Of a stretch of DNA of 64,000 nucleotides, positions 1,119-58,972 are shown piece by piece. The stretch comes from Candidatus Gastranaerophilales bacterium (lineage in GTDB: Bacteria; Cyanobacteriota; Vampirovibrionia; Gastranaerophilales; Gastranaerophilaceae). The notes under the pieces were generated by a model. The model searched no databases and was not told where the DNA came from. It worked only from the letters and a program-made list of their open reading frames with translations. The translations under genes were made by a program, and so were the position numbers. How positions within the stretch are numbered: the stretch's first letter is position 1; every line of letters starts with the position of its first letter. The stretch is from contig CALVEB010000006.1 in the NCBI GenBank assembly GCA_944326465.1, positions 1-64,000 on the forward strand, given 5' to 3'.

Positions 1119-1124
1119 ATCAGT

Positions 1125-1152
1125 ATTATAACTCAAAAATTTGTAGTATAAT
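1125..1152. promoter_or_regulatory. Divergent leaderless promoters for GT9 and comM
   Basis: Only 40 bp separate the two start codons. On the minus strand TATAAT (1125-1130) lies 6 nt before the GT9 ATG. On the plus strand TATAAT (1147-1152) lies 6 nt before the comM ATG at 1159. There is no room for a ribosome-binding site in either 5' region if transcription starts about 7 nt after the -10 box, so both mRNAs should begin at or next to the A of ATG. Confidence 0.65.
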
Positions 1153-1158
1153 AGCCGT

Positions 1159-3615: not shown

Positions 3616-4614
3616 TTACTCAAACATGCCGGCGCATTTTTCACCGCAAAACATACATCTGTCGTTATCAAGATTATATTCTCCAAGTCCATAGCCGACT
3701 CTTTTTATAACCGGTTTGCCGCAGTTTTTGCAGTATGTCGCAGCGGTTTCGGCAACTGAAGAATTTCCAATATAAACATAATTCAGCCCCGCGGCTCTTG
3801 CTATATTATATGCATTCAAAAGTGTTTTGTAATCTGTGGCTTTTCTGTCAGTAAATTTATAATTCGGGAAGAATGCACTAAAATGCAGCGGGACATCTTC
3901 TCCGAGATTATCTAAAATCCACCTGCATTCAGATTGAATTTCTTCATCAGATGTGTTTTCACCTTCAATTAAAAGTGTTGTCAATTCAAGCCAGCAGTCA
4001 GTATAATTTTTAACATATTTAATTGTTTCAAGAACAGGTTTAAGATGTGCCAGACAGTTTTTGCGATAAAACTTTTCGCTGAACGCTTTAAGATCAATAT
4101 TTGCGGCGTCCATATATTTAAAAAATTCTTTAGCGGGTTCCTGATTAATGTATCCTGATGTTACGGCAACGGTTTTAATCCCGTTTTCGCGGCAAAGTTT
4201 TGCGGTACCTATTGCATATTCAAAAAATGCTACGGGATCGTTATAGGTAAACGCTACACTTTTACAGTTATGAGCTTTTGCAATAGCGACAATGTCAGCG
4301 GGCGATGTCGGGTTGAGCATTCGGGCATCAGCCTTACCGCGTGAAATATGCCAATTCTGACAAAAACGGCAGCCCATAATACAGCCAAGAGTTCCAAATG
4401 ATAAAACAGTACTGTTCGGATAAAAATGAAAAAGCGGCTTTTTTTCAATCGGGTCTATTGCAAGCCCTGTATTATATCCGTAAGAGGTCAGAACAATTTG
4501 TCCGTTAATATTTTTTCTTATGTGACAAAAACCTTCCTGTCCCTCTTGCAAAATACAATTGCGCGGACATATTGTGCACTGAACTCTGTCATTTAATACA
4601 TCCTGAAAATACAT
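3616..4614 (-). CDS. amrS: AmmeMemoRadiSam system radical SAM enzyme
   Basis: 332 residues, matching the AmrS branch of radical SAM proteins (PflA-like, COG1180). The radical SAM cluster motif is the CxxxCxxC in GCIMGCRFCQNW. An N-terminal CTICPRNC pair and a C-terminal zinc-ribbon-like CKNCGKP plus CMFCGEKC are also present. AmrS usually accompanies AmmeMemo partners (Memo, AMMECR1); none is in this window. No clear Shine-Dalgarno sequence is seen, but TAATAT (4621-4626) lies exactly 6 nt upstream of the ATG, so it may be leaderless. The substrate of this family remains unknown to me. Confidence 0.88.
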   Translation of the reverse strand: MYFQDVLNDRVQCTICPRNCILQEGQEGFCHIRKNINGQIVLTSYGYNTGLAIDPIEKKPLFHFYPNSTVLSFGTLGCIMGCRFCQNWHISRGKADARMLNPTSPADIVAIAKAHNCKSVAFTYNDPVAFFEYAIGTAKLCRENGIKTVAVTSGYINQEPAKEFFKYMDAANIDLKAFSEKFYRKNCLAHLKPVLETIKYVKNYTDCWLELTTLLIEGENTSDEEIQSECRWILDNLGEDVPLHFSAFFPNYKFTDRKATDYKTLLNAYNIARAAGLNYVYIGNSSVAETAATYCKNCGKPVIKRVGYGLGEYNLDNDRCMFCGEKCAGMFE

Positions 4615-4725
4615 AGATATATATTAGCATATTAATTTAATCGGGGCAAGTGTAATTTTTAAATAAAAAATGAACTTATTTTTAAATAAATCGTTTTATA
4701 ATTGTAGAACAAAAGGAGAAATATT

Positions 4726-12166: not shown

Positions 12167-13575
12167 ATTATAACATATTTTAATTTAAAAGTAAATCAAA
12201 ACGGGCTTTAAGGTCAATAGCCGGTTTGTCGTATTATAACATATTTTAATTTAAAAGTAAATCAAAACAAAACAAGGCTAAAATCAGGTAAATCAATTAT
12301 AACATATTTTAATTTAAAAGTAAATCAAAACAAAGAGCTATAACTATAACCTTGAGTATTGAATTATAACATATTTTAATTTAAAAGTAAATCAAAACCC
12401 GTCTGTGTAGTTATCTTCATTGCAGAATTATAACATATTTTAATTTAAAAGTAAATCAAAACAACCCGTCAAGCTTGATTTGTCCCCATTTCCATTATAA
12501 CATATTTTAATTTAAAAGTAAATCAAAACAATTGATAATTTGTTTGTCGAGGATTTGAATTATAACATATTTTAATTTAAAAGTAAATCAAAACTGATGT
12601 TGGCTATTGTAGTTGGCATAATTCAATTATAACATATTTTAATTTAAAAGTAAATCAAAACGACTGCTAATTTGCCCTCGCAAAAATTCAATTATAACAT
12701 ATTTTAATTTAAAAGTAAATCAAAACATCCATATGGTGGTTCAAAAGTTAATCCAGATTATAACATATTTTAATTTAAAAGTAAATCAAAACATAAATTG
12801 TGTAGTGCTGTGTCCAATTCATATTATAACATATTTTAATTTAAAAGTAAATCAAAACACGTCATATCATTTGCAGACAAAAATGATTATAACATATTTT
12901 AATTTAAAAGTAAATCAAAACGTAAGTATATTGATATTGTTCATTTGTCGCATTATAACATATTTTAATTTAAAAGTAAATCAAAACTTACAGGTATTTT
13001 GATAAAAAACGTATATCATATTATAACATATTTTAATTTAAAAGTAAATCAAAACATGTTACCGGTAAAATGCGATCATCAGACATTATAACATATTTTA
13101 ATTTAAAAGTAAATCAAAACATAGCGAGATTGTAAATCGTGAGAATAATAATTATAACATATTTTAATTTAAAAGTAAATCAAAACTCTAACAGTTGGAG
13201 TAACTCTATTTAAATTATAACATATTTTAATTTAAAAGTAAATCAAAACGTTCTATATTTACATACAAAAAAAATGTATATTATAACATATTTTAATTTA
13301 AAAGTAAATCAAAACCTAACGCTGACGGTATCGCAACCATAACAATTATAACATATTTTAATTTAAAAGTAAATCAAAACTCATTGAATCAACTTTGATG
13401 TTGTTTTCAAATTATAACATATTTTAATTTAAAAGTAAATCAAAACAAAAACCCGTATTGTCAAATTCAGTTCTTATTATAACATATTTTAACCTAAAAG
13501 TAAATCGAAACTACGCTCATCGATGGGTATCTTCGCGGCAGATTATAACATATTTTTAAATAAAAAAATAAAAAC
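12167..13575 (-). CRISPR. Type II-C CRISPR array: 22 repeats, 21 spacers
   Basis: Repeats are 36 bp, starting at 12167, 12233, 12296 and so on to 13542; spacers are 27-32 bp. Twenty repeats look identical. The copy at 13476 has three substitutions. The last (13542) is badly decayed and runs into the tRNA-Gln 3' end. Read on the minus strand, each repeat starts GTTTTGATTTAC and ends ATGTTATAAT, i.e. an extended -10 box (TGnTATAAT) with TTTACT 17 bp upstream as a -35. This is the arrangement known from Neisseria and Campylobacter II-C arrays, where each repeat drives its own crRNA. I therefore set the crRNA strand to minus, opposite to the cas genes. Confidence 0.97.
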
Positions 13576-20703: not shown

Positions 20704-21197
20704 AGATGTCGACTTATATTTGTGTACTTTTGTATTAAACCAGACATTTCAATCCTGTACGGTTAAAATGATTTTACCCCGTAAAGCGGCTTTGTGTTTA
20801 GGTTTCAACCTGCCGGAAGAGTCCGAAAATAATCAAACCAAATTACTTGAAAAGTCCACGAAATGTCCGTTGAAGTCCACCCTCTCGACTTGTGGTTGTA
20901 ACCCTTATGTGGCGAAAGTTTAGGACATATTTGAATTTGTACGAATGGTTTGATTATTTTCGGCAAGGACATTTGAAATTTGTCTTGGATTATTCGGGGT
21001 GCAGGCACTCTGCCGAACAAAAGTTGACTAAATGTCAAGTTTTGTGAGAGGTAAACGTCCGACCTGCACCTTACGGGTTACGCTCCGCTTCACCCTACCG
21101 AAAATCCGCTAGCCGGAACTTTTTTTCTTAAGGTCGGAAAATTTTTCATCAAGTTTGTAAAAATCTTTATGTATAATTTTTATGATAGTATAGATAT
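20704..21197. other. Noncoding stretch holding an inverted-repeat element
   Basis: About 490 bp with no convincing gene. It contains an 18-bp perfect inverted repeat (20823-20840 and 20946-20963) around about 105 bp, smaller pairs such as AAATGTCC / GGACATTT, and a GC-richer tail (about 21050-21115) with CGACCTGCACC and ACGGGTTACGCTCCGCTTCACCC-type sequence resembling other palindromic repeats in the window. Confidence 0.55.
20823..20963. repeat. Element bounded by an 18-bp inverted repeat
   Basis: CCGAAAATAATCAAACCA (20823-20840) and its exact reverse complement (20946-20963). The inner part of the arm, CGAAAATAATCAAAC, recurs at 22918-22932 after the HxlR gene. It could be a MITE-like insertion or a structured RNA; no ORF fills it. 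Confidence 0.7.
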
Positions 21198-23003: not shown

Positions 23004-24656
23004 CTAATCCGCGACAAGCGATCTTGCAAATTCAATAGACTGTTCGTTAATATCGCCGCCTGCCAGTTCTGCCAGTGCCTTAATCCTGTTATCTCCGGTC
23101 AGCACGTAAACATCAACCTGCGTTTCGTTACTCTGTGATTTCCTTACGTAAAAATGTTTATCTGCCTTTGACGCTATAATCGCTTGATGTGTAATTAAAA
23201 TTATCTGATGATATCTGGCAAGATCAACGATCTCATCAGCCACGCTCTGAGAAGCTTTGCCGGAAATCCCCGTATCTATCTCATCAAAAATAACAGTATT
23301 TATGTCGTCGCTCTGCGCAAAAATTGATTTTATAGCAAGCATTACACGCGAAATCTCTCCGCCTGAGGCAACTTTTGCAAGCGGTTTTAAATCCTCAGAT
23401 ACATTCGTTGATATCATAAATTCAACGTCGTCAATACCGTCAGGAGATAACTCTTTTGGTTTTAAGGCTATTTCAAAACGCGCCTTTGGCAATTCCAGTT
23501 TTTCTAATTTATCCTGAACAAGTGATGATAATACTTTTGCATAATTACTTCTGTTTTCGCTGATTTCTGCGGCCATTGCGTTAAGCTGCTTTTCTGCCTC
23601 AGTAATTTTTGTTTCCAGTTCATCAATATTTTGCGTAGAAAATTCTATTGCAGAAAGTTCCTTCGACAAATCATCATAAGTTTTAAGCACACTTTCTAAA
23701 GTTCCGCCGTATTTGCGTTTCAATTTATCCAGAAGATAAAGCCGTTCCTGAATATTGTTTAACCTCTCGGTATCATTATCCAATTTTTGGCTGTAGTCGC
23801 GCAAATCACTGCCGACTTCCCGTAAATTTTCTATTGCATCTATAAGGCATTGTTCAATAGGTGTTAATTTTTCATCATAAGATGCCGCTTTAGTGACATT
23901 TTGTTTTATTTTTCCGAGAGCCTCCATAATTGAGCCGTCATCACCGTTTATTGCCCAATATGAAGTTCCGGTTAATTCTTTTAACTTTTCTGCATTTTCC
24001 AAAACTTCCAGTTCTGTCTGCAAATCAGTATCTTCTGTTTCGCTTTGAATTTCGGCAGCTTCTATCTCGTTTATCTGGAATTTTAGAAAATCAATTTGCG
24101 ATTCTGTTGTATTTGCTGCTGTTTTTAAATTCTCAAGCTGATTTTTAAACTCCTGATATTGCCTGTAACACTCTTTGTAGCTGTTAAGTTTTTCACCGTA
24201 ACAGTCTTTTGCATAGTTATCAAGAAGTATGATATGCGATTTAGGCTGCATAAAAGAGTATGTCTGGTGCTGGGAATGGATATCAAGAAACAGATTTTTT
24301 AAATGTTTGATAAAATCCTGATTTACGAGAGTGCCGTTTACTCTTGTGCGTACATTATTCGGGGTAATCTCTTTTGAGATAACAATTTCCGTGCCGTAAT
24401 AATCCACTCCGTTTTCTGCAAAAAACTTTTCTACATTGTGCCGGCGGTTTTCTATAGTAAGCTCAATTACAGCTTTTTCCCGACCGGTTTTGATAACTTC
24501 TTTTGACACACGCGGCGCAAAAACAAGATCTATCGCGTTGATAAGAATACTTTTACCAGAACCGGTTTCACCTGTGATCACATTCAGTCCTTCGTGAAAT
24601 TTTGCGGTCAGTTCGTCTATTAAAATATAATCTTTTATTCTTAACTGCTTAATCAT
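23004..24656 (-). CDS. recN: DNA repair ATPase RecN
   Basis: About 550 residues. RecN is an SMC-like protein of double-strand-break repair. Walker A is ITGETGSGKSILINAI near the N-terminus; the central 150-330 region is a coiled coil. The ABC signature is VASGGEISRVMLAIKS and Walker B is TVIFDEIDTGISG, followed by LITHQAIIASKA. I start at the ATG 24656 (MIKQLRIKDYILIDEL), which aligns with family N-termini; the TTG at 24674 is the alternative. TATCCT lies 6 nt before this ATG, and no ribosome-binding site is seen, so it may be leaderless. Confidence 0.95.
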   Translation of the reverse strand: MIKQLRIKDYILIDELTAKFHEGLNVITGETGSGKSILINAIDLVFAPRVSKEVIKTGREKAVIELTIENRRHNVEKFFAENGVDYYGTEIVISKEITPNNVRTRVNGTLVNQDFIKHLKNLFLDIHSQHQTYSFMQPKSHIILLDNYAKDCYGEKLNSYKECYRQYQEFKNQLENLKTAANTTESQIDFLKFQINEIEAAEIQSETEDTDLQTELEVLENAEKLKELTGTSYWAINGDDGSIMEALGKIKQNVTKAASYDEKLTPIEQCLIDAIENLREVGSDLRDYSQKLDNDTERLNNIQERLYLLDKLKRKYGGTLESVLKTYDDLSKELSAIEFSTQNIDELETKITEAEKQLNAMAAEISENRSNYAKVLSSLVQDKLEKLELPKARFEIALKPKELSPDGIDDVEFMISTNVSEDLKPLAKVASGGEISRVMLAIKSIFAQSDDINTVIFDEIDTGISGKASQSVADEIVDLARYHQIILITHQAIIASKADKHFYVRKSQSNETQVDVYVLTGDNRIKALAELAGGDINEQSIEFARSLVAD

Positions 24657-24696
24657 ATTTTCAGGATATCTCAAAAAATAATTTTAAACAATAATT

Positions 24697-27989: not shown

Positions 27990-27995
27990 TATAAT
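27990..27995 (+). promoter_or_regulatory. -10 box of leaderless alr
   Basis: TATAAT exactly 6 nt before the ATG at 28002, with no ribosome-binding site in between. Confidence 0.6.
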
Positions 27996-28001
27996 TATGA
28001 T

Positions 28002-29126
28002 ATGAAAAACATGCGGCAAACTAATATCAACACGCACAGAGATGCATGGGTTGAGATCAATCTGGAAAATTTAACAAATAATATAAAAGAAATCAAGAAG
28101 AATGTACCTCAGGGTAACAAGCTCCTTGCTGTTGTAAAGGCTGATGCCTACGGCCACGGGGCTGTTATGCTGGCTCCGACACTTCTGGCATCAGGGGCTG
28201 ATATGCTGGGGGTTGCCTCTATTGATGAAGGCGTTGATTTAAGAGAGGCTAAAATCAATGCTGAAATTCTTGTTCTCGGTGCTGTTCCTGTTTGGGCTGT
28301 TGAAAGTGCAGTTAAGGCCGATCTTTCAATATCTGTTTTTTCACGTGAACATCTTGCCGCATGCCGGCAGGCTTATGAGCGTACAGGAATAAAGCCAAAA
28401 GTTCATATAAAATTAGATACCGGCATGAACAGAATAGGTGTATCTGTTGATGATGCTGTAGAATTTATCAAAGATGCACAAAAACTTGATTTTATAAATC
28501 TGCAAGGTATATTCACACATCTTGCGTCAGCAGAAGAACGCGATGAAACTCAAATACAAATTAATAAATGGAATAATGTAATTTCACAAATAAATACAGA
28601 TGGTTTGCTGCTGCATATTTTGAATACAGCCGGCGGAATGAGTTATGATGTTCCTAATTCCAATATGCGTCGTGCCGGCATAGCTCTTTACGGATTATAT
28701 CCGGACTTGCCGCCTGACGGTAAAGTTATCAGACCTGAACTTAAACAAATATTGTCGCTCAAAGGCCGTATTGTTAACATACACACGGCAAAAGACGGCG
28801 AAGGTGTAAGTTACGGGCACACATACCGAGCAAAAGGCGATCGTATAATAGCGACCATTCCTATTGGATATGCAGACGGTGTTCCGCGTATTCTGTCTAA
28901 CAAAATTTGCGGAGTATTGAACGGACATTCTGTTCCGCAGGTCGGGAATATAACAATGGATCAAATGATGTTTGATATAACCGGTGTTGATGCTGATCTG
29001 GGTGATGTAATAACACTTCTGGATGAAGATCATTCAATTGATAACTGGGCAAATCTCGCCAATACAATTAGTTATGAACTGACATGCGGTTTAAAAGTCC
29101 GGCTTCCGCGAATATATACACGCTAA
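28002..29126 (+). CDS. alr: Alanine racemase
   Basis: 374 residues from the ATG at 28002; an upstream ATG at 27963 is in frame but precedes the -10 box. Alr makes D-alanine for peptidoglycan using pyridoxal phosphate. The PLP lysine is in LLAVVKADAYGHGA, the second catalytic Tyr in GEGVSYGHTYRA, and GMNRIGV, NTAGGMSYDVPNSNMRRAGIALYG and GNITMDQMM are conserved blocks. The likely mRNA starts at the ATG. The lpd-like gene follows after 16 bp and is probably co-transcribed. Confidence 0.96.
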   Translation: MKNMRQTNINTHRDAWVEINLENLTNNIKEIKKNVPQGNKLLAVVKADAYGHGAVMLAPTLLASGADMLGVASIDEGVDLREAKINAEILVLGAVPVWAVESAVKADLSISVFSREHLAACRQAYERTGIKPKVHIKLDTGMNRIGVSVDDAVEFIKDAQKLDFINLQGIFTHLASAEERDETQIQINKWNNVISQINTDGLLLHILNTAGGMSYDVPNSNMRRAGIALYGLYPDLPPDGKVIRPELKQILSLKGRIVNIHTAKDGEGVSYGHTYRAKGDRIIATIPIGYADGVPRILSNKICGVLNGHSVPQVGNITMDQMMFDITGVDADLGDVITLLDEDHSIDNWANLANTISYELTCGLKVRLPRIYTR

Positions 29127-36949: not shown

Positions 36950-36955
36950 TAGAAT
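36950..36955 (+). promoter_or_regulatory. -10 box of leaderless prfB
   Basis: TAGAAT exactly 6 nt before the prfB ATG at 36962; no ribosome-binding site between. Confidence 0.5.
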
Positions 36956-36961
36956 AATTCT

Positions 36962-38045
36962 ATGGATACAACAGAACTTAAACAACAAATAAATACTTTA
37001 ACAGACAGATATGAAAAGCTAAAGGAGTGTCCCTGAAAAGCTGGAGCAGGATTTGTCACGACTTGAAGCAGAAATGCAATCGCCAGAGGTTTGGAGTGAT
37101 ACAGATAAAAGTTCAAGACTCGGACAAGAAATTAAAGAGATAAAGGAAACTCTGGAAAGACAGAATAACTGGCAGTCTATTTTAGATGATGCGCAGGTCT
37201 CACTTGAGATTGACGATGAAGACCTTATAAATGAATCTGCCAGACGCCTTGAAGCTATGGAACGAGAACTGAACAAGTTTGAAATATGCAAAATGCTGAG
37301 CGGAGAATATGATGAAGCCGATGCAATTTTGACAATCAATTCAGGCGCCGGCGGCACTGATGCGCAGGACTGGGCAAGTATGCTTTTAAGAATGTACATG
37401 CGCTGGGCTGAACGCCGCGGTTGGAAAGTAGAACTGCTCGACAAGCTTGACGGTGAAGAAGCCGGTATAAAATCAGCGTCAATTCAAATTACCGGTAAAT
37501 TTGCCTTCGGTTATGCCAAAGCTGAAAAAGGCGTACACAGACTCGTCAGAATTTCGCCTTTTAATGCAAACGGTAAACGCCAGACAAGTTTCGCATCAGT
37601 TGAAGTCGCACCCCTTATTGAAGATTACGAAAAAACTATTGAAATTCCGCCTGATGATTTGGAAGTTGAAACAATGCGTTCCGGCGGCGCAGGCGGTCAA
37701 AAAGTTAATAAAGTGGAAACCGCTGTCAGAATTTTACATAAGCCGACAGGAATCGTCGTAAAATGTCAAATACACAGAACACAATTACAAAATAAACATA
37801 CTGCAATGTTAATGCTTGCCTCAAAATTACTGGCAATAAGGCAAGCAGAGCACGAAAAAAAACTCGCCGATATTAAAGGTGAAAACGCTGATATAAATTT
37901 CGGTTCCCAAATCCGTTCTTACGTATTTCATCCATACAAAATGGTTAAAGATCACCGTACGAATTGTGAAGTTGGAAATGTTGATGCAGTAATGGATGGG
38001 GATATAGATATTTTTGTTGACACATATCTAAGAGCCAATGCTTAA
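36962..38045 (+). CDS. prfB: Peptide chain release factor 2, programmed +1 frameshift
   Basis: About 360 residues after frameshifting. The first 24 codons (from ATG 36962) end ...KLKECP followed by an in-frame TGA (37034-37036); reading resumes in +1 at 37035 with [16 protein letters not shown]2 recognises UAA/UGA, so low RF2 lets ribosomes shift past its own UGA, the classic autoregulation. Domain marks: [12 protein letters not shown], the GGQ peptidyl-hydrolysis motif in [12 protein letters not shown], and [18 protein letters not shown]. An SPF-type anticodon tripeptide is expected in the middle ([13 protein letters not shown]). The gene lies divergent from the membrane protein. Confidence 0.95.
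37022..37036 (+). promoter_or_regulatory. prfB frameshift site
   Basis: A Shine-Dalgarno-like AAGGAG (37022-37027) is followed by TGT, then CCC TGA A (37031-37037). The spacing of SD to the shift codon matches prfB sites elsewhere, but the usual CTT TGA C is replaced by CCC TGA A. A CCC codon is also slippery because P-site tRNA-Pro can re-pair in +1 (CCT). Confidence 0.85.
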
Positions 38046-43787: not shown

Positions 43788-43793
43788 TATAAT
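43788..43793 (+). promoter_or_regulatory. -10 box before the repeat-rich locus
   Basis: TATAAT exactly 6 nt before an ATG at 43800. It starts transcription into the repeat-rich prepilin locus. Confidence 0.55.
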
Positions 43794-43799
43794 ATATGT

Positions 43800-43823
43800 A
43801 TGGATACACGTGAGGATTCTTAA
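43800..43823 (+). CDS. Possible 7-codon leader ORF
   Basis: ATG at 43800 encodes MDTREDS and stops at TAA 43821-43823, whose last A is the first base of the next ATG (TAATG). Its own A is where transcription should start given the -10 box. It contains GTGAGGA, which may instead serve as the ribosome-binding site of the following ORF. Confidence 0.35.
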   Translation: MDTREDS

Positions 43824-50488: not shown

Positions 50489-51562
50489 TTACACGCACTC
50501 CAATAATGTATAGCAGTGAATGCCTACATTTGTATATTTGTTTTCTATTCTTAATCCTGCATTTTCTATCAGAGAAGACAATTCCGCCAGTGAATACATT
50601 TTGCTGTTACCGTTTGCCATACAGGTAAAATAGAGCGAAATATGTGCAATGGCAAAGGCTGCCCCGCTAAATTCCTGATTATCAATTATCGGCTCAAGAA
50701 TATATATACGTGTTCCGCTTTTTGCTGCAGCCTTAACTTTTTTCAAAATCTCTATAACCTGTTCTTCTGAAAAGCAGTCTAAAAACTGGCTCATAAAGAC
50801 AGCATCTTCAAGCTGCGGCAATTTATCATCAGACAAAATGTCCAGTCCATAGAATTTGAGGCGGTCTGAATTTACATTCTTTTCTGCAATTTCTTTATTC
50901 ACAGGTAAATCAATTATATTGACCCTACAGTCAGGCGCAAAGGAAAGACAGGCTTTTTCAAATTTACCTGTGTTGCCGCCTATATCGAATATTTGCTGCG
51001 GTTTGTGTTCAAAAATTATCTTCAAAACTTCATCAAAGCAGTCGTCAGAATAGTAATGATCAAAGTCATACCAGGATTTTTTAGCCCTGTCAGGTAAATT
51101 CGGCACATGCGGATATATTGTAGGGGCATCAACAAAATATTTTTGCAGCCCGCACGGACTCGCTTTCGCAAAAGATTCCGTTAATTCCGAGGCGCCGAGA
51201 TAACACACATCACGCATAAAATTAAAATTATTAATCGTCATCTCATCTGTCAAAAAACATTCCCCAAGCGGAGTGAGTGAAAATCTTTCATCTGATTTTT
51301 CAACAATACCGGAATAATATGCGACCTGTAAAAGTGTTACAGCCGTGTATTTTGATACATTACAATTAGAAATAATTTCATCTGTTGTTGACTGTTTTTC
51401 TGATAAAAATTTTAATATACCAAAATCCAGCATTGCGGCAACCGCCTGAAATGTAAACGGTGCAAATGCTATTTTTTGTGCATTATTCAATGCCTCAACT
51501 TTTGAATATTTCTTTTTATTACTTCTTCTATACTTAATTTTTGTTGATTTAACTTCCACCAT
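50489..51562 (-). CDS. SAM-dependent O-methyltransferase (polyene cluster)
   Basis: 357 residues from the ATG at 51562; the frame is open to 51625 but that would pass the -10 box. A plant-OMT-like dimerisation domain (about 25-150) precedes the Rossmann SAM site IFDIGGNTGKFEKACLSFAP (about 199-218), then NIIDLP and DAVFMSQFLDCFSEEQV. Methyltransferases of this kind occur in aryl polyene clusters, where they modify the aryl head group; the substrate here is inferred from context. TATAAT lies exactly 6 nt upstream, inside a palindrome shared with the PPTase start. Confidence 0.85.
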   Translation of the reverse strand: MVEVKSTKIKYRRSNKKKYSKVEALNNAQKIAFAPFTFQAVAAMLDFGILKFLSEKQSTTDEIISNCNVSKYTAVTLLQVAYYSGIVEKSDERFSLTPLGECFLTDEMTINNFNFMRDVCYLGASELTESFAKASPCGLQKYFVDAPTIYPHVPNLPDRAKKSWYDFDHYYSDDCFDEVLKIIFEHKPQQIFDIGGNTGKFEKACLSFAPDCRVNIIDLPVNKEIAEKNVNSDRLKFYGLDILSDDKLPQLEDAVFMSQFLDCFSEEQVIEILKKVKAAAKSGTRIYILEPIIDNQEFSGAAFAIAHISLYFTCMANGNSKMYSLAELSSLIENAGLRIENKYTNVGIHCYTLLECV

Positions 51563-51580
51563 GGTATTATTATACCATGG
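51559..51580. promoter_or_regulatory. Palindromic divergent leaderless promoter
   Basis: CCATGGTAT (51559-51567) and ATACCATGG (51572-51580) flank TATT. Each arm contains a start codon: ATG of the methyltransferase (minus, A at 51562) and ATG of the PPTase (plus, 51577). The -10 boxes interlock: TATAAT (51569-51574, minus) and TATTAT (51565-51570, plus), each 6 nt from its own ATG. The start codons are 14 bp apart. Confidence 0.75.
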
Positions 51581-58943: not shown

Positions 58944-58972
58944 GCTAATATACTAATATAGTTGGAGAGAAA
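58944..58972. promoter_or_regulatory. 29-bp divergent promoter between the two polyene operons
   Basis: Holds GCTAATATACTAATATAG: direct repeats CTAATATA that provide a -10 for each strand. The plus-strand operon has a ribosome-binding site GGAGAG; the minus-strand start is probably leaderless. The whole cluster can be switched from this short stretch. Confidence 0.55.

Follow-up and report, generated by a model that had tools for sequence, protein, structure and literature searches.

The closest described counterparts of the genes considered here are the TA-led genes of Zheng et al. 2011 (PMC3160421), which carry a TANNNT or TATAAT hexamer some 12 nt ahead of the start codon, lack a Shine-Dalgarno (SD) site and occur mixed with SD-led genes. 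That survey found a TATAAT-rich version with a TG extension in low-GC genomes and left the Cyanobacteria outside the groups with detected leaderless genes. In mycobacteria, leaderless transcripts make up nearly a quarter and start with ATG or GTG (Shell et al. 2015, PMC4633059). Leaderless mRNAs have been described in photosynthetic cyanobacteria for cvkR and cas12k of Anabaena (PMC9938897), and that paper cites 51 leaderless mRNAs in Synechocystis; a further study left undecided whether leaderless mRNA underlies the AT-rich upstream bias of Cyanobacteria (PMC5397173). The literature that we covered, which excluded most subscription papers, yielded no report of leaderless genes in the Melainabacteria/Vampirovibrio/Gastranaerophilales lineage. 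To our knowledge, Gastranaerophilales genomes were unavailable to the 2011 survey.

Gastranaerophilales, non-photosynthetic cousins of cyanobacteria, live in the gut, where they are widespread but for the most part uncultured. We analyzed the window, meaning the whole 64-kb stretch of DNA presented above, together with its host genome, a Candidatus Gastranaerophilales (Vampirovibrionia) MAG of 2.07 Mb in 52 contigs. The host has a class of genes in which a -10 hexamer is followed by exactly 6 nt and then an ATG (spacing N6). Like TA-led genes, these N6 genes have an enriched hexamer about 12 nt upstream, almost never an SD and mostly a first-gene position; like mycobacterial leaderless genes, they lack an SD, stand alongside leadered genes and would have the start codon at the 5' end of the mRNA. 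With the photosynthetic cyanobacterial cases they share the phylum and a predicted transcription start on the start codon, but those cases are individual mRNAs rather than a class. The type of signal is thus already known from TA-led genes; what appears to be new is its occurrence in the Gastranaerophilales lineage, which comes with a contrast inside the phylum.

The initial annotation placed the following hexamers exactly 6 nt before an ATG, and every coordinate agreed when re-read:

1125-1130, minus strand: TATAAT -10 box before ATG 1118 of a glycosyltransferase family 9 (GT9) gene, CDS 102-1118, Pfam PF01075
1147-1152, plus strand: TATAAT -10 box before ATG 1159 of comM/yifB, CDS 1159-2700
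4621-4626, minus strand: TAATAT, -10-like, before ATG 4614 of a radical SAM gene, CDS 3616-4614
21186-21191, plus strand: TAGTAT, candidate -10-like site, before ATG 21198 of a DUF4440/SnoaL-like gene
24663-24668, minus strand: TATCCT, -10-like, before ATG 24656 of recN, CDS 23004-24656
27990-27995, plus strand: TATAAT -10 box before ATG 28002 of the alanine racemase gene alr, CDS 28002-29126
36950-36955, plus strand: TAGAAT, -10-like, before ATG 36962 of prfB (release factor 2), main frame 37053-38045 via a +1 frameshift
43788-43793, plus strand: TATAAT before ATG 43800 of an ORF of 7 codons
51565-51570, plus strand: TATTAT -10 box before ATG 51577 of a 227-aa protein, initially called a PPTase, that has no Pfam match
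51569-51574, minus strand: TATAAT -10 box before ATG 51562 of an O-methyltransferase gene, CDS 50489-51562; overlaps the -10 box of the opposite gene
58950-58955, minus strand: TAGTAT, candidate -10-like site, before ATG 58943 of a ketoacyl synthase-like protein

The 40-nt gap at 1119-1158 separates the divergent start codons of GT9 (ATG 1118) and comM (ATG 1159) and has a TATAAT at N6 on each side. Another divergent pair of start codons, 51562 and 51577, is only 14 nt apart (51563-51576), and its two -10 boxes overlap within the palindrome-like CCATGGTATTATTATACCATGG. This interval would be a minimal bidirectional promoter serving two probably leaderless genes.

We compared N6 with neighbouring spacings, a control that preserves base order and was used in place of the reversed pattern. 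To call gene starts we used a simple program of our own that considers only codon usage and start-codon type and is blind to the upstream sequence; it gave 955 starts in a genome sample of 1.23 Mb in stretches, 64 kb of which is N (1.17 Mb remaining). The window has 12 copies of TATAAT-N6-ATG, where other spacings have 0-9; two of these copies belong to CRISPR repeats, and several more do not open an ORF. Across the whole genome, the predicted excess over neighbouring spacings holds for TATAAT, with 156 raw TATAAT-ATG pairs at N6 compared with averages per spacing of 62 (N7-9) and 61 (N3-5). At the blind-called starts the peak is one base wide: exact TATAAT was found 1, 27 and 3 times at N5, N6 and N7, and TATAAT with one mismatch 5, 49 and 9 times (n = 955). 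ATG-started ORFs of at least 60 codons outside other genes gave 45 TATAAT sites at N6 versus a mean of 5.4 elsewhere, TAGTAT-N6, the form of the candidate sites at 21186 and 58950, gave as a class 3 versus 0.2 in the genome sample, and four hexamers counted at N6 in the 1.17 Mb gave 72 sites versus about 11 expected. Extrapolating from the N6 excess, we estimate that about 110-150 genes, or 6-8% (roughly one in fifteen), are leaderless, as against about 20% in Actinobacteria and about 40% in Deinococcus-Thermus (Zheng et al. 2011, PMC3160421).

The looser pattern TANNNT-N6-ATG, for which a genome-wide count had been proposed, behaved differently. On the raw ATGs of contigs C1-C3 it showed no enrichment (314 at N6, 352 at N5, 328 at N7), and only at called non-SD gene starts was it in excess (66 versus 18 expected). 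Because the genome is AT-rich, TANNNT is too loose for this purpose, and the count in its literal form would have misled. Only ATG starts showed the peak. Whereas mycobacterial leaderless transcripts start with ATG or GTG, no N6 peak was seen at GTG (3 sites), TTG or CTG starts in the host. With just 23 GTG starts among the 955, however, no more than about two such cases would be expected, too few for a peak.

The N6 genes differ from the rest in several further respects. A strong SD site precedes 1 of 49, compared with 45% of other genes, which bears out the original observation that genes with the N6 box lack an SD while others have one. The base before the ATG is T in 90% of N6 genes and in 49% of SD genes. 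Bacterial transcription usually starts at a purine that follows a pyrimidine, and a T before the A of ATG therefore points to a transcription start at that A. The hexamer is preceded by TGn in 26 of 49 N6 genes, versus 8.7% for TATAAT overall, and positions -21 to -17 form a T-rich stretch. Evidence for a strong -35 box is weak at best: 14 of 49 have at least four matches to TTGACA, where about 8 would be expected. By operon position, 39 of the 49 fall in the "first" class and 2 are internal, the corresponding figures for all genes being 604 and 261 of 955. The 16S tail retains an intact anti-SD, CACCTCCTTTCT, and SD sites peak at the normal distance; the N6 class would thus represent a second mode beside SD initiation. 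Since about 350 of the 417 non-SD ATG starts in the sample have no -10 at N6, the non-SD genes are only partly accounted for by the leaderless class; the remaining starts may include mis-called ones, or they may use another mode of initiation.

Relatives retain the N6 arrangement for most of the genes that we followed. Of 79 comM relatives, 75 have TANNNT upstream with a spacing of exactly N6, and none of the 79 upstream regions contains an SD core. Information in this alignment peaks at the hexamer, at the T-rich stretch before it, at -1 and at the ATG, with -6 to -3 nearly free, and mean pairwise identity is 0.76 in the hexamer versus 0.41 upstream. The comM relatives also place the host genome in Candidatus Gastranaerophilales, the gene being 99% identical in BRZ_E__bin153. 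From codon 2 onward the third positions of comM vary, whereas first and second positions hardly do; translation thus begins at ATG 1159, and no alternative start is needed. For prfB, TANNNT is at N6 in 19 of the 23 relatives in which the frameshift start could be placed. The weak site before recN gained support, because TATCCT, TATTCT or TATGCT stands at N6 in nearly all relatives of at least 72% identity; it is mostly lost in more distant ones. Relatives with identities as low as about 40-50% still have the N6 hexamer of the gene at 51577. Two genes are less strict. The alr relatives, almost all without an SD, have the -10 at N6 or, often, at N8-N10. For the radical SAM gene, the weak TAATAT does lie at N6 in the window, but most relatives have a TATAAT at N7.

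Separately, the +1 programmed frameshift of prfB (window 36962-37050; loci L292-L320) is kept, with an internal AAGGAG. Its slip site reads CTTTGAC in most relatives and CCCTGA in the host species and its nearest relative.

We consider it very probable, from sequence evidence, that the N6 genes are transcribed from the A of the AUG by sigma-70-type promoters, are leaderless and are translated without SD pairing. In such genes the -10 box would end exactly 6 nt ahead of the start codon, RNA polymerase would start at the A of AUG and yield an mRNA without a leader, and ribosomes would start on the 5'-terminal AUG; this leaderless class would coexist with a larger SD-led class. A leaderless transcript predicts a one-base peak, a missing SD, T at -1, rarity inside operons and conservation of N6 across species, all of which were found, and the initial proposal that the mRNA begins at the start codon is supported accordingly by the sequence pattern. 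If instead the mRNAs were near-leaderless, with a leader of 1-4 nt and an AT-rich or S1-type initiation in place of a 5'-terminal AUG, the N7-N10 variants among radical-SAM and alr relatives would be explained; equally good short leaders would, however, also populate spacings 7-10 at the called starts, where one-mismatch TATAAT numbers 9, 3, 7 and 4 against 49 at N6, and we regard this alternative as highly improbable for the class. For alr and the radical SAM relatives individually, leaders of 1-4 nt may occur, and given the N8-N10 and N7 spacings a leader of 0-4 nt is a fair statement for both genes. We judge equally improbable the idea that the promoters are real and N6 merely a consequence of the short gaps between genes in a compact, AT-rich genome, with translation starting elsewhere or by ordinary leaders: low GC does make TATAAT-like words common and raw TANNNT-N6-ATG is not enriched, but the spacing peak already contradicts it as a general account, as do the missing SD, the nearly invariant T at -1, the N6 spacing conserved across species and, at comM, the coding constraint from codon 2.

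One listed site is not supported as a leaderless gene. The ORF at 43800 has 7 codons only, and TATAAT-N6 is followed by no excess of short ORFs; leaderless mini-ORFs ahead of SD-led genes were rejected as a class, with 13 intergenic ORFs of fewer than 30 codons after TATAAT-N6 versus 4-16 at other spacings. The TATAAT at 43788-43793 more probably serves as promoter for a leadered gene whose start, at 43823, has GTGAGGA ahead of it.

Sixteen intergenic ORFs of at least 60 codons behind TATAAT-N6 are absent from the blind gene calls. Short uncalled ORFs behind TATAAT-N6-ATG lie at C16:13174, C16:31288, C7:67551, C9:3818, C15:29819 and C8:56710; several of the short uncalled ORFs are XRE-type HTH proteins, and one is HicA-like in appearance. 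An over-representation of HTH regulators among leaderless genes was considered but is not claimed, as only a few of the 59 HTH_3 matches in the genome are N6.

The window also holds a CRISPR array (12167-13560, minus strand) near a Cas9d (type II-D) gene. Its 36-nt repeat, GTTTTGATTTACTTTTAAATTAAAATATGTTATAAT, is present in 20 identical copies and 2 variants, and the end of each repeat forms a perfect extended -10 (TGTTATAAT). Spacers of some type II-C arrays are transcribed from their own promoters; by analogy, the extended -10 at every repeat end suggests that each spacer here may have its own promoter.

To place the signal in the phylum, we counted raw TATAAT-N6-ATG in 117 genomes, which are related, so that the numbers are descriptive and not independent trials; photosynthetic genomes were defined by photosystem reaction-centre genes (PF00124). 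In the host's family, N6 exceeds N7-9 in 48 of 48 genomes (ratio 1.3-3.0, median 2.0), and the family total of 5951 N6 sites is 2.0x the approximately 3000 expected from both flanking sets. In contrast, the 47 genomes with reaction-centre genes have no N6 excess (1323 versus about 1470 expected, 0.90). Three further families with no PF00124 match (f5, f9 and f13) were enriched at N6, with ratios of 1.95, 3.7 and 3.4; the N6 sites of these three families number 213, 24 and 36 (p 9e-16 to 3e-6). A family of the host's own class (f2) shows little or no excess (ratio 1.22), and two others (f16, f30) show no N6 enrichment. Some families without reaction-centre genes (f3, f5, f12 and f13) have TATAAT before ATG more commonly at N7-9 than at N3-5, which suggests very short leaders there. 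The N6 excess in three other families and its absence from photosynthetic genomes hint that leaderless initiation is an old trait of non-photosynthetic Cyanobacteriota that was lost or became rarer in the photosynthetic line. We hold this to be rather unlikely, and the near absence of an excess in f2 argues against so simple a history.

A predicted leaderless set that probably includes comM, prfB and recN would allow start-codon annotation to be corrected and would account for some of the non-SD genes of this lineage, and TATAAT-N6 is a usable signal for small genes overlooked by SD-based gene finders. Set against its photosynthetic relatives, the lineage allows the gain or loss of leaderless initiation to be tested within one phylum; if the trait were indeed old, the phylum would offer a clean comparison for the gain and loss of a second mode of translation start.
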